Below, piece after piece: positions 50,443 to 55,580 of a stretch of DNA of 64,000 nt. Under the pieces are notes generated by a model, which was not told the origin of the DNA, searched no databases, and was given only the letters and a program-made list of their open reading frames with translations. Where the stretch lies: the NCBI RefSeq assembly GCF_023983475.1, contig NZ_CP092713.1, forward strand, positions 1,178,001 through 1,242,000, given 5' to 3'. The number at the start of each line of letters is the position of its first letter. The first letter of the stretch is position 1. The position numbers and the translations under genes were made by a program. Source of the stretch: Aliivibrio fischeri ATCC 7744 = JCM 18803 = DSM 507 (GTDB taxonomy: Bacteria > Pseudomonadota > Gammaproteobacteria > Enterobacterales > Vibrionaceae).

Positions 50443-51489
50443 CTAAAAATACACCTCTACAGGCATGCCTTCTACCCACTCTTTTTCTAATAAACCACCT
50501 AAAAACGTAATTTTAACCTTGAGTAAAGCTTTAGCTCCTTCAAAAGGTTTTGCTAACTGAATAGGAAGTTTTGAGGTTAAACCTATGGCAGATGACACTC
50601 TCGCCTCTACTTTTTTACCATTAGGAAGTTTAACCGTTACTAATGCACCTAATTTTGCTTTTTCAATGTGCTTAGGGTCTAAATAACTAATAACATAAGG
50701 AGCAACATCTGGTGATACAGTGACCAGTGGATCCCCAATGCTAATTTGTTGTCCTTTCAAGGCATTAATATCAATCACCAATCCCATATACGGAGCTCTA
50801 ATTGACAATGCATCAAGTTGATTTTTTTTCGTTGTTAATGCTTGGTTTAATTCACGAGTAACTTGAGCAACACCTCCAGCTAGTAAGCGTTGCTTTTGTG
50901 CGATTTCAGCTTGATTTAATGCGATATAAGCATTGGTAAGATTATTTTGTGCGGTGTTATAAATACCAACAATTGCGGCATAATCCACTTGAGATACTTT
51001 CCCCTCTTTTGCGTATTGATCATAATTGACTTTGATTTTCGTTATCTTTTTTAAATTAAGCTTTGCAGCTCCAATAGCACTAATATACGGACCAAAATCT
51101 TCTGTAATTTTTTGCGTTTGCTCTTGGTATAATTGCTCTAATTCATTTCCTATAAATTCAATTTCTTGCTCTAAAATGGGCGCATCTAATTCCATTAGCA
51201 ATTGATCTTCCAGAACAAATTCACTGTCTTTCACATCAATTAACTTTACTGAACCATTTTGGGATGCTGTGATGATCACAGGCCCTGTGGTGATTATTCC
51301 AGGAGCTACGGTAAATAAATGTTGTTTTGCAAAGGTATAAATCATAAAAAATATAGGACTAAGAATAATTGCTAGTATCAAATACCATCTAAAACGATAC
51401 GCCCCACGTTTTTCCATTCCATACAGCACTTTCATGCCGTTGTCTGAGGTTGGTTTATTCTTTTTTTCTAAATGAAATTTAACATCCAT
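50443..51489 (-). CDS. HlyD-type membrane fusion/polysaccharide copolymerase-like protein
   Basis: A 348-residue protein with a cytoplasmic ~30-residue start, one transmembrane helix at ~36-58 (WYLILAIILSPIFFMIYTF), a barrel-sandwich strand pair (GSVKLIDVKDSEFVLEDQLL; APYMGLVIDINALKGQQISI) around a coiled-coil hairpin (~110-220), and a C-terminal beta-barrel. This is a HlyD/Alg44-like periplasmic adaptor without a PilZ domain. It starts 5 nt after the glycosyltransferase gene. Together they look like a synthase and its periplasmic partner for exporting a polysaccharide. Polymer unknown. Confidence 0.83.
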   Translation of the reverse strand: MDVKFHLEKKNKPTSDNGMKVLYGMEKRGAYRFRWYLILAIILSPIFFMIYTFAKQHLFTVAPGIITTGPVIITASQNGSVKLIDVKDSEFVLEDQLLMELDAPILEQEIEFIGNELEQLYQEQTQKITEDFGPYISAIGAAKLNLKKITKIKVNYDQYAKEGKVSQVDYAAIVGIYNTAQNNLTNAYIALNQAEIAQKQRLLAGGVAQVTRELNQALTTKKNQLDALSIRAPYMGLVIDINALKGQQISIGDPLVTVSPDVAPYVISYLDPKHIEKAKLGALVTVKLPNGKKVEARVSSAIGLTSKLPIQLAKPFEGAKALLKVKITFLGGLLEKEWVEGMPVEVYF

Positions 51490-51494
51490 AATAG

Positions 51495-52811
51495 TTAAAA
51501 CCTCTTACCACGTTTAAGTACCCACCATGGAGCCATGCTAGATTCCTCATGACTTCGTCTAACAATTTCATTTATCATGGCAAATGCAGTAACAAACCGC
51601 ATAAACAAAGCATAGAATGGATATATCAATAGCCATAAAAGCATTTCACGGTCTTCTTGGATCCGTTCGGAAATCAAGCTGAGATAGATAAGAAAGGTCA
51701 TGGCAATGAATACCAAATAAATGACGTATAAACAGCTTAGGACTGCGAGAACCACTGTTGTTGGATAAAATATAAATATATAAAAATTAAACAGTGTCAT
51801 TAATACCGGTAATAATACCGCTTGTAAAACACCATAAACTAAGGTGTAACCAAAACTTCCCCATCCATACAATTTTGGGCGTAACCCATGTTTATGTTTT
51901 CGTAAATACACAAACAGAAGATCACCATCCCAACGTAATCTTTGACTCATTAAACCTTTAAATGTATCTGGTACATCAGTATGTCCAATCGCTCTAGGAG
52001 AAAAGTTAAGCCGAGTTCCTGGGTATCGTTTTTTGTATTGTTTTAAACGAATCGTTAAATCAAGATCTTCTGCTGTATGTGTATTCCAGCCACCGACCTG
52101 TTTCAATACTGAACGCCTAAAACCACCAAATGCCCCAGAAATATTATTCAATAAGCCCCATGTTGCCATTCCTGTTTTACTGCTCTGCATCGACATCATA
52201 TATTCGAGTGACTGCATTTTTGTCCAAAAACTGCTCTCTCGATTTCTTACCCTTAACGCACCTCCACAAGCAATAACATTAGGGTTTGCAAATGTTCGCG
52301 CCATTTTAAGAGCCATGTTGTTATCAAAAGAGGTATCTCCATCCACATTGATAACCAATTCATGTTTTGCTTCTGATAGCCCAGCATTAAGAGTCGATAC
52401 ACGTCCACCACGCTGCCATTTAGGAAGAATTTTGATGGTTTTATTTGGTATATTTTTGTATTTTTTAATCAAAGATATAGCTGTTCTATATGTCTCTTTA
52501 TTCTCTTTAGCACCATCAATCACAACTAAGATTTCAATGTGGTTTGGGTAGATTTGCTCAACCAAAGTAGCAATGGTTTTTTCTATCTCTTTACCTTCTG
52601 CATAACAGGTAACAATAAAACTGATTGATGGATGTTCATGTTTCCTGACTTCATTCGCTCCCCATGACCAATGCAAAATACCAATAAAAATGAGCAATAA
52701 AAGCGGGACTTCAACAAGCAATAATATAGGCAAAAAAGTTAGCATTAACTCCCAATATGTCGTCAACGTACCGGTTATTAAATAAAGAATATATTGAAAT
52801 TCAGCCATCAT
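51495..52811 (-). CDS. Processive family 2 glycosyltransferase (polysaccharide synthase)
   Basis: A 438-residue membrane glycosyltransferase. An N-terminal hydrophobic segment (~10-45) precedes a GT-A domain with SFIVTCYAEGKEIEKTI, the DxD-type VDGDTSFD near residue 155, TAEDLDL near 244 and QRLRW near 287 (the QxxRW motif of processive synthases). Three or more C-terminal helices follow. The pattern is that of PgaC, Alg8, cellulose or hyaluronan synthases; the sugar cannot be read. Its ATG overlaps the upstream stop (ATGA), so it is coupled to the TackOD1/GGDEF-like gene, and it is followed by the HlyD gene. Confidence 0.88.
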   Translation of the reverse strand: MMAEFQYILYLITGTLTTYWELMLTFLPILLLVEVPLLLLIFIGILHWSWGANEVRKHEHPSISFIVTCYAEGKEIEKTIATLVEQIYPNHIEILVVIDGAKENKETYRTAISLIKKYKNIPNKTIKILPKWQRGGRVSTLNAGLSEAKHELVINVDGDTSFDNNMALKMARTFANPNVIACGGALRVRNRESSFWTKMQSLEYMMSMQSSKTGMATWGLLNNISGAFGGFRRSVLKQVGGWNTHTAEDLDLTIRLKQYKKRYPGTRLNFSPRAIGHTDVPDTFKGLMSQRLRWDGDLLFVYLRKHKHGLRPKLYGWGSFGYTLVYGVLQAVLLPVLMTLFNFYIFIFYPTTVVLAVLSCLYVIYLVFIAMTFLIYLSLISERIQEDREMLLWLLIYPFYALFMRFVTAFAMINEIVRRSHEESSMAPWWVLKRGKRF

Positions 52812-54157
52812 ATATCCTTAAGCAAATCAGCTAACCATACTGAAGCACTATGACTCAATGAAGGATCAGGCAATTCCCAAATGTACAAATGAAGAGTCAC
52901 CAGTTCAGACTCAATATCACTGGCAATATTGGCGACTTTATCTTCAATAATTTTATGTGAGCTTCTTGGTGTCATTGGCATAAGAAGTAACATCAACTCT
53001 GAATTGTATTGACAACAAATGTCTGTATCTCTTAGCAACCCATTAAAATGAGATGATATTTCATCGATTAACTGTATCCGCTTTATCTCACCAAACTCTT
53101 TTGAGTAGCTATCAATTCCGGATAATTGAACCCCTAATAATAAATGGTGCTGTTCATGTCTTATTGCTAACTTATTTATCCATACCAACAAATTATGAAA
53201 TGAATTTTGGTCAATTAAACCGTTAAGTGAGAGCGCTTGCTCTATCGGTCGACGACCATACATCATAAGACCTTTAACCTGCTCACCCACTTTAAATTGA
53301 TTAATTGGCCTTGCTATTAACTCACTGGTTTCATTCATATGGAAACAAGAAAGACATCGAACTCTCACTACCGATTCGGAAAATGATAACTGACAATCTC
53401 GACATTGATAGCGCTCCAACGGTCTATCATAATCAACACCAATATGACGTAACTTAGTAAAACAATTTGGGCACTGAAGTTTATCTTGTTTAACAAAACG
53501 TTGTTCTTTACCCACATGACCACAAGTGAAACAATGCAGTGATAATATCTCCTCGATGTTTGTACTCTTACAATCGGGGCAAGTCTCGATGTAATTTAAA
53601 TGTCCGCTATGACAAGATGAACATAATCTTATTTTATCTACGGTATTAAGCTTTTCTAAATACCCTCTTTTTTCCTCTAATTGAAAATAATGATAAGGCT
53701 CATAATCCTCACCAAAATAACAATGTAATAAAGGATAATAATATAGTTCTCTTTTCTCACTTTGGCATAAAGGCAATAAACGTCGATCCAACCCAAGCCA
53801 TAACCATGCCAGTAGTTTGTCTGTTGGTTCTTCTTCAATTAAAGATAATTTACTTTGATGCTGTTTCCATTGATCTGTAATTTTGAAGGGATCAAAAATG
53901 CCATCAGATAGGTATTCAGTCAATGTACTCTCTTGTAAAACATAGACTTGGCTATTCCAGAGTGGGAAATCTTGATGTAAAGAGAGTAATGCTTGATTCT
54001 GTTTTTTAGGTTCTAAAGCTAAAATTATTATTGCTGGGGAGTCTAATGTTAATTCATCTAAATTATTAACATATATAAAATCAAGGTCCTGACAATTAAT
54101 TGGAATATCATTTCCAATAACATACATTGAAATACGATTATTATCATGTATATCCAT
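52808..54157 (-). CDS. TackOD1-like zinc-ribbon protein with degenerate GGDEF domain
   Basis: A 449-residue cytoplasmic protein and first gene of the polysaccharide operon. Residues 1-110 resemble a receiver-like alpha/beta domain without a clear phospho-Asp. Residues ~178-270 hold six CxxC pairs (CSSC, CPDC, CFTC, CPNC, CRDC, CLSC), forming stacked zinc ribbons that fit the TackOD1 output domain as I know it. Residues ~310-449 have the fold pattern of GGDEF domains, but the GGDEF motif is replaced (YNSELMLLLM), so no cyclase activity is expected. It probably acts as a regulator or scaffold for the synthase. Family names are by recognition and should be confirmed by profile search. Confidence 0.75.
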   Translation of the reverse strand: MDIHDNNRISMYVIGNDIPINCQDLDFIYVNNLDELTLDSPAIIILALEPKKQNQALLSLHQDFPLWNSQVYVLQESTLTEYLSDGIFDPFKITDQWKQHQSKLSLIEEEPTDKLLAWLWLGLDRRLLPLCQSEKRELYYYPLLHCYFGEDYEPYHYFQLEEKRGYLEKLNTVDKIRLCSSCHSGHLNYIETCPDCKSTNIEEILSLHCFTCGHVGKEQRFVKQDKLQCPNCFTKLRHIGVDYDRPLERYQCRDCQLSFSESVVRVRCLSCFHMNETSELIARPINQFKVGEQVKGLMMYGRRPIEQALSLNGLIDQNSFHNLLVWINKLAIRHEQHHLLLGVQLSGIDSYSKEFGEIKRIQLIDEISSHFNGLLRDTDICCQYNSELMLLLMPMTPRSSHKIIEDKVANIASDIESELVTLHLYIWELPDPSLSHSASVWLADLLKDI

Positions 54158-54263
54158 ATCTAACCTCTATCAATATGAATTAACTAAATTCTATAATGCC
54201 TTTCCTTATTGCTTATATACCTAGTTTTAATATCCTATAAGTATAGTTAGGAATTTTTAAATC
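54158..54263 (-). promoter_or_regulatory. Remaining upstream region of the polysaccharide operon
   Basis: 106 bp between the first operon gene and the left end of IS copy 2. AT-rich, with TATACT as a possible -10 in the leftward direction. The IS insertion has separated this piece from whatever control sequence lay further upstream. Confidence 0.4.
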
Positions 54264-54303
54264 TGTCTCGTCCTAAAATACGTTGACGATTTTTAATTGA
54301 AAG

Positions 54304-55137
54304 CTAAGTGCGTACGCACTTGGCTTTTTTGTGTACTTGATTTGGTGTACTCATTCCCAAGCTTAAATGTGGCCGCATTTCATTATAAATAAAAATAGAT
54401 TCTTCAACTAAATGCCTTAACTCCTCTAAATCTTTACAGTCATACAAAAGAAACTCTTGTTTAAGTATCCCATTTATTCGCTCTGCTAATGCATTTTGAT
54501 AGCAATCATAACCATCCGTCATTGATGGCTTAATATCATTTTTATTCAATTTTTCCTGATAAACCTTTGAACAATACTGTAATCCTCGGTCTGAATGATG
54601 AATCGTACTCCTTTGATATTGACGGCTATCTATCGCCATATCAAGAGCTTTGACTACATCAGTAGCTTTCATTTCATCACTTAATTCATATCCCATTATC
54701 TTTCGACTATAAGCATCTGTTACTAAAGATAAATAATGAATACCTTTTTGTGATTGAACGTAAGTGATATCACTAACAAAAACCTCTTCAGATGCTTGAG
54801 GTGTTACTTCTTTAAGTAAATTAGGATGTTTTTTCATCCAATGCTTACTATAGGTAGTTTTTGTATAACTTCGTTTAGGTTTTACTAATAAGCACTCATT
54901 TCTTAAATAGGAAAAAAAGTTATCTCTGCCTAACTTTATGCCATGAGTGATGAATTTGGGCTTAAGTAAAAAATATAATTTTTTACCTCCAATACGAGGC
55001 ATATATCGACGAATTTCTTGCACCATATTTTTAACCGGTGAAAGTTCAACGGCACGTTTCAGAGCTCTACGTTCTTGTTGGTATATACATTGTCTTGTAA
55101 TGCCAAGTAGCTGACTAGCTCGCTCTAAGCTGATCAT
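54304..55137 (-). CDS. IS3-family transposase OrfB (copy 2)
   Basis: 277 residues, identical in prediction to the OrfB in the pykA copy: DDE residues in FVSDITYVQ, IHHSDRGLQ and ALAERINGI. Start overlaps the orfA stop by ATGA. Intact. Confidence 0.93.
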   Translation of the reverse strand: MISLERASQLLGITRQCIYQQERRALKRAVELSPVKNMVQEIRRYMPRIGGKKLYFLLKPKFITHGIKLGRDNFFSYLRNECLLVKPKRSYTKTTYSKHWMKKHPNLLKEVTPQASEEVFVSDITYVQSQKGIHYLSLVTDAYSRKIMGYELSDEMKATDVVKALDMAIDSRQYQRSTIHHSDRGLQYCSKVYQEKLNKNDIKPSMTDGYDCYQNALAERINGILKQEFLLYDCKDLEELRHLVEESIFIYNEMRPHLSLGMSTPNQVHKKAKCVRT

Positions 55138-55532
55138 TTTCTGCTTTTGAAGACTTCTTGCTCCTTGGCAATATACTTTTTTCTAAGGCCTGCACCATGT
55201 TCTGCGTCCATGATATTCACTACTTCATTAAGTAATAAATTACGCATTCTTTCATCATCAAGCTCTCGCTCTAAACGTTTAATTTTTTGTGCAGGCGATT
55301 CTTTCGCTTTCGGGGATTTAGGCATAATAATCTTAGGTGATTGAGACCAGTCCATCTTACCGTGTTTTCTTAACCAAGTAAGTACGGTAGATCGACCTTG
55401 AATGCCATAAATGTTTTGAGCTTGCTTATAGGTCATATCGCCTTTTTCTATAGCGGCAACAAGCTGCAATTTAAAGCCTAATGAATAATCGCGTTGAGTT
55501 CGCTTATTCTTTGTTTTTTCTTGATTTGTCAT
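55134..55532 (-). CDS. IS3-family OrfA (copy 2)
   Basis: 132 residues, identical in prediction to OrfA of copy 1, with helix-turn-helix and C-terminal coiled coil. Intact. Confidence 0.92.
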   Translation of the reverse strand: MTNQEKTKNKRTQRDYSLGFKLQLVAAIEKGDMTYKQAQNIYGIQGRSTVLTWLRKHGKMDWSQSPKIIMPKSPKAKESPAQKIKRLERELDDERMRNLLLNEVVNIMDAEHGAGLRKKYIAKEQEVFKSRK

Positions 55533-55580
55533 ATAAAAGTCCTAAATGTGTAAACACATTTCAGGACGAGACAATCACAT

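Follow-up and report, generated by a model that had tools for sequence, protein, structure and literature searches.

The mxdABCD operon of Shewanella oneidensis MR-1 (SO4180 = mxdA) is a known biofilm operon, and its mxdA and mxdB mutants do not aggregate (PMC3691769). MxdA has a degenerated GGDEF domain (PMC3409153), binds cyclic di-GMP (c-di-GMP), interacts with CheY3 and PdgA (PMC7666153, PMC11395469) and affects c-di-GMP levels indirectly (PMC3691769, PMC3409153). PelD of the Pel system and BcsE of the cellulose system are also degenerate GGDEF proteins, and bind c-di-GMP at the inhibitory site (I-site) (PMC8461298); mxd is not mentioned in the main text of that paper. The original work on c-di-GMP binding by MxdA was reportedly that of Gambari et al. 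in 2019. Here, a three-gene operon of Aliivibrio fischeri ATCC 7744 was compared with these systems. It lies in a stretch of 64,000 nucleotides (contig NZ_CP092713.1, positions 1,178,001 to 1,242,000 of the forward strand), referred to as the window.

Judged from its sequence, this is probably a Mxd-type, c-di-GMP-controlled exopolysaccharide synthase operon (mxdABC), a reading to which we assign a probability of about 0.78. The system itself is not new, being a member of the mxd family; what is added is that MxdA is a TackOD1 protein, that its I-site is conserved and that TackOD1 is linked phylum-wide with this glycosyltransferase family 2 (GT2) synthase. In the literature found, TackOD1-GT2 systems have been studied mainly as mxd of S. 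oneidensis. A text search for an operon joining degenerate GGDEF, HlyD, glycosyltransferase and exopolysaccharide returned nothing, and papers retrieved for mxd together with fischeri were unrelated as judged by title only. The word TackOD1 was found in a single paper (PMC5847659), most subscription papers being outside the search, and the link between MxdA and TackOD1 is not claimed to be unpublished.

Homology of the triplet with mxdABC

The three genes, referred to as A, B and C, are tightly coupled, with an A/B overlap of 4 nt and a B-C spacing of 5 nt:

52808-54157, minus strand: A, mxdA homologue, TackOD1 plus degenerate GGDEF (Pfam, conservation, 35% identity to MR-1 MxdA)
51495-52811, minus strand: B, mxdB homologue, GT2 synthase with DGD, ED and QRLRW (50% identity to MR-1 MxdB)
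50443-51489, minus strand: C, mxdC homologue, HlyD/EmrA-type periplasmic adaptor (31% identity to MR-1 MxdC)

These identities correspond to 144 of 409 columns for MxdA (E 1e-81), 223 of 443 for MxdB (E 5e-167) and 106 of 341 for MxdC (E 5e-53). The Shewanella locus L059 (genome G120) carries A, B, C and then a fourth open reading frame (ORF) of 122 aa, in this order. All five primer cores of the mxd promoter (PMC3691769, Table 2) match L059. Of the loci compared, only L059 and L034, a fragment of the same region, are matched by the three longest cores (21, 23 and 30 nt); the two 15-mer cores are present in further Shewanella pieces too. L059 was therefore taken to be the published MR-1 mxd locus. 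MR-1 MxdD, searched by BLASTP (E up to 1e-5, ORFs of at least 80 aa) among 110 loci, matched only in L059 and L060. Since MxdD is not a general feature even of the compared loci from Shewanella, A-B-C was taken as the conserved core.

On these comparisons, the window triplet is a collinear homologue of S. oneidensis MR-1 mxdABC. The first-pass annotation of this DNA had placed three coupled genes at 50443-54157, with coordinates, strand and coupling that proved correct, and had proposed a polysaccharide role, which is likely. Its description of the system as undescribed has to be given up in view of the homology with mxdABC and the primer matches. A supposedly undescribed system is now placed in the mxd family, where genetics exist.

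Domains and conserved residues of A

Protein A matched TackOD1 (PF18551) with 234.4 bits (gathering cut-off 32; E 9.7e-70) over residues 106-290, and this is the only TackOD1 gene in the genome (4,503,206 bases in 2 contigs). The match to GGDEF (PF00990) over residues 327-414 was weak, at 15.9 bits below the cut-off of 23.8 (E 0.012). The layout of A thus comprises an N-terminal region (residues 1 to about 105), TackOD1 with six CxxC pairs (106-290) and a degenerate GGDEF domain with R376-x-T378-D379 and K407. A receiver domain in the N-terminal region is not claimed: in hhalign, a comparison with 12 receiver domains from this genome gave E 0.96, and one with a larger set (30 retrieved loci of 56 matches) E 0.0068 but a probability of 5.6%.

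Residue conservation was scored in 80 aligned A proteins (those of 78 loci, the window and MR-1) and in a set of 93 rows (90 distinct) that adds 13 phylum-wide rows. R376, T378 and D379 are each invariant in the 80 proteins, and RxxD is kept in 92 of the 93 rows, the sole exception being L211 (HESD). Residue 407 is Arg in 49 and Lys in 31 of the 80, and Arg or Lys in 91 of the 93 rows. The GG[DE]EF motif is retained in none of the 93; the same stretch reads NSELM in the window and TRDGL in MR-1. In profile comparisons the I-site residues of A align with the RxxD that shortly precedes GG(D/E)EF in diguanylate cyclases of known structure, such as 7e6g and 4urs. Residue 407 lies 31 residues past the first Arg, which we take to be the place of the second I-site arginine in PleD. 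Because the I-site is invariant, the active-site motif is lost and MxdA is reported to bind the nucleotide, A is predicted to be a c-di-GMP receptor. This offers a residue-level, testable account of how MxdA senses c-di-GMP.

The first-pass annotation had recognized A as a TackOD1 protein with an inactive GGDEF-like domain. The profile score places it in that family and not in an unrelated one, and the loss of GG[DE]EF throughout the rows agrees with an inactive domain. It had also assigned the regulatory place to a metal-binding protein. In such a metal or redox sensor the TackOD1 cysteines would regulate B with no c-di-GMP input. The twelve Cys of the six CxxC pairs are indeed near-invariant, each being present in 77 to 80 of the 80 sequences, and the function of TackOD1 has been called obscure (PMC5847659). 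The I-site is, however, no less invariant than the cysteines, c-di-GMP binding by MxdA has been reported (PMC7666153, PMC11395469), and the metal might serve to stabilise the structure (PMC5847659). Regulation by metal is thus probably wrong, and a metal sensor that dispenses with c-di-GMP appears unlikely. Among the 13 phylum-wide rows, C209 is absent in seven (L203, L206-L211) and C179 in L202.

Conservation, export and genomic setting of the triplet

The named loci are the best 80 of 403 stretches encoding a relative, and were selected by A. The order A-B-C was found in 78 of them; in the other two (L150 and L151) the contig ends first. Since the genes stand together in 78 of 80, their arrangement is not due to chance. 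All three were also present in 16 of 16 loci fetched around TackOD1 matches in relatives. When 398 genomes were sampled evenly across the phylum, without ranking by similarity, TackOD1 was over the cut-off in 15 of them (16 genes). A B homologue adjoins A in each of the 16 (13 of 13 plus the window, G041 and G045), and C is present in 15, the miss being L206, a contig of 4,287 bases. In L203, L207 and L208, C is matched upstream of A, and the match is weak in L207 (E 1.2e-11) and L208 (E 4.2e-7). Neither B nor C was found at three sub-cut-off TackOD1 matches (L212-L214). Among 117 genomes of the genus Shewanella, A was over the cut-off in 15 and B (E up to 1e-60) was found in the same 15, with a stop in two of the B genes. 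The expectation that the triplet is kept together was borne out.

L203, L206, L207 and L208 form a divergent TackOD1-GT2 branch in which RxxD is kept and C209 is lost, L206 being cut by the contig end. In several genomes one of the three genes is disrupted or split (mxdB in G063, G085 and L100, Vibrio diabolicus; mxdA in L081/L067, Shewanella indica), possibly through decay or sequencing error.

A broader proposal, which we hold tentatively and with somewhat less than even confidence, is that TackOD1 in Pseudomonadota may be a dedicated partner module of one GT2 synthase class. With a catalytically dead, I-site-keeping GGDEF domain it would form a further c-di-GMP gate beside PilZ, PelD/BcsE and PgaCD, across Vibrionaceae, Shewanella, Aeromonas, Pseudoalteromonas, Rheinheimera, Marinobacter, Pseudomonas and deeper branches. 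If so, archaeal TackOD1 proteins at pilus loci would likewise serve in docking at membrane surface machinery. The orphan TackOD1 domain, predicted to bind zinc, gains a consistent genomic partner in Pseudomonadota, which makes its function testable.

Several GT2 models matched B. The best NCBIfam model was that of PgaC/IcaA (TIGR03937), at 162.7 bits and well under its cut-off of 422.3; the relatives of known structure (E up to 1e-10) comprise hyaluronan synthases and one GT2. C matched HlyD_3 with 34.7 bits (cut-off 22.2), and EmrA/EmrK under its cut-off. PilZ was matched in neither protein (Pfam, E up to 1). The earlier assignment of B as a GT2 synthase and C as a HlyD adaptor lacking PilZ therefore stands, as does the observation that no outer-membrane exporter is nearby: of 10 matches to the outer-membrane efflux family (OEP) in the genome, eight exceed the cut-off and belong to four proteins, none of the 10 lies in the window, and no exporter gene adjoins the triplet. 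In loci of Pseudomonas, Marinobacter and similar organisms, B and C are 0.8-2.2 kb apart, with these genes in the gap:

L131, 10670-12796: long-gap gene with OEP domain
L088, 10673-12799: long-gap gene with OEP domain
L091, 10985-12706: long-gap gene with OEP domain
L099, 10602-11480: separate short-gap gene, no Pfam match over the cut-off

The OEP domain (PF02321) was found in all three long-gap genes tested. In each, it precedes a stretch of some 260 residues with 43-75% identity to the gene of L099. By eye, this roughly 260-residue domain, fused to OEP or alone, looks like a putative TIM-barrel hydrolase. The OEP domain in the gap genes of related operons suggests export by a TolC-like route. 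With OEP proteins also encoded elsewhere in the genome, the idea that the polymer stays at the membrane becomes less likely.

The operon may work as follows. c-di-GMP would bind to the degenerate GGDEF domain of A, much as in PelD and BcsE and in line with the binding reported for MxdA. The TackOD1 zinc-ribbon module would relay the signal to the membrane synthase B, or dock A there, and A would activate B. B would then polymerise a nucleotide sugar, perhaps N-acetylhexosamine from the weak similarity to PgaC, and extrude the polymer. C would connect B across the periplasm with a TolC/OEP-type channel in the outer membrane, probably encoded elsewhere, and the output would be a matrix polymer for aggregation or biofilm.

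The absence of an adjoining exporter would also fit a product of B that is a short glycan or glycolipid and not an exported polymer. Similarly, the interactions of MxdA with CheY3 and PdgA (PMC7666153, PMC11395469) and its indirect effect on c-di-GMP levels (PMC3691769, PMC3409153) would fit an A protein that acts chiefly as a hub for CheY or diguanylate cyclases, with c-di-GMP secondary. The invariance of the I-site, the conservation of the HlyD adaptor and the OEP gene in some operons argue against both variants, which together we regard as improbable.

Several observations weigh against a c-di-GMP-controlled Mxd operon in the window. The mxdD gene is absent as a fourth gene, C being followed by zwf, and A and MR-1 MxdA are only 35% identical. 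In the most distant branch of A, L211 has HESD and Gly at residue 407, and L209 has Ile at 407. Enzymes of c-di-GMP turnover were rejected as regular neighbours: a GGDEF/EAL gene was near 16 of the 80 named loci (small home-made profiles), which is not clearly above the background to be expected from a genome of 4.5 Mb with 38 GGDEF matches. Finally, an IS3-family element upstream of A may change expression of the operon. Among the matches listed, a GGDEF/EAL gene just upstream of A and on the same strand was found at the second Aliivibrio locus (see below), at two Rheinheimera loci and at L087.

The triplet is flanked downstream by zwf, pgl and gnd, and upstream by the IS3 element, then lolE, lolD, lolC and, further out, mfd. 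The upstream features are:

54158-54263, minus strand: residual upstream DNA between IS3 and the start codon of A, 106 bp, keeping any remaining native upstream sequence (BLAST against the empty sites of L018 and L020)
54264-55573, minus strand: IS3-family element between lolE and A, outside the system (IS3 transposase model on ORF 54304-55137; empty site in L018 and L020)
54304-55137 and 55134-55532: ORFs of the IS3 element

A 3-base duplication (GAT) at the IS3 site was placed by reading the element ends; in BLAST, the two flanks have four bases in common. Separation from upstream DNA by this element, which is not in the closest relatives L018 and L020, could have left the operon silent or decaying in this strain. 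The distribution of the operon in the genus is patchy: A and B occur both in the same 9 of 14 Aliivibrio genomes, and G004 also has a lone second B. All three window frames are nevertheless intact and near-identical to those of L018 and L020 (A 98-99%, B 99-100%, C 98-99%), and the 106 bp upstream of A are kept. We think a silent or decaying operon a slim prospect, and one compatible with the Mxd-type reading.

Aliivibrio has two types of locus. The window carries locus 1 (lolCDE - triplet - zwf); locus 2 lies about 14 kb away from locus 1 in G002 and G005 (L021, L019). Locus 2 is present in 5 of the 14 genomes, two of them having both loci. Upstream of locus 2 in G002 lie EAL-GGDEF and CHASE-GGDEF genes, and downstream of it an MCP (chemotaxis-receptor) gene, gene clusters seen again in G005, G010 and G013. 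The A tree groups both Aliivibrio loci with Vibrio sinensis in a single Vibrionaceae clade (7 rows, 100/100). Of the two A copies in G002, one shares 98% identity with A of the window.

Comparison with described systems

The window operon and mxd of MR-1 share the gene order A-B-C, homology along most of the length, tight coupling, and A proteins that both combine TackOD1 with a degenerate, RxxD-bearing GGDEF. They differ in that the window lacks mxdD, that A and C are just 31-35% identical, that the neighbours are lolCDE and zwf with IS3 upstream, and that some Aliivibrio carry a second such locus.

With PelD and BcsE, A shares the lost active site, the kept I-site and the place of a receptor for exopolysaccharide machinery (PMC8461298). 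PelD differs in having GAF and transmembrane helices where A has TackOD1, and the Pel synthase is the GT4 PelF where the synthase here is a GT2. The likeness to the poly-N-acetylglucosamine synthase PgaC/IcaA lies in B, a GT2 with TIGR03937 as its best NCBIfam model; B is, however, below the cut-off of that model, and an MxdA-like protein and a HlyD adaptor adjoin it instead of pga genes. The alginate pair Alg8-Alg44 likewise combines a GT2 with a HlyD-like periplasmic protein, Alg44. In contrast, C has no PilZ match, and the regulator here is a separate TackOD1/GGDEF protein. The archaeal TackOD1 response regulators share the PF18551 domain with A, but there it occurs alone or fused to a receiver (REC) domain or to REC and a winged helix-turn-helix (PMC5847659), whereas here it stands between an N-terminal region that resembles REC just weakly (hhalign probability 5.6%) and a C-terminal degenerate GGDEF domain.

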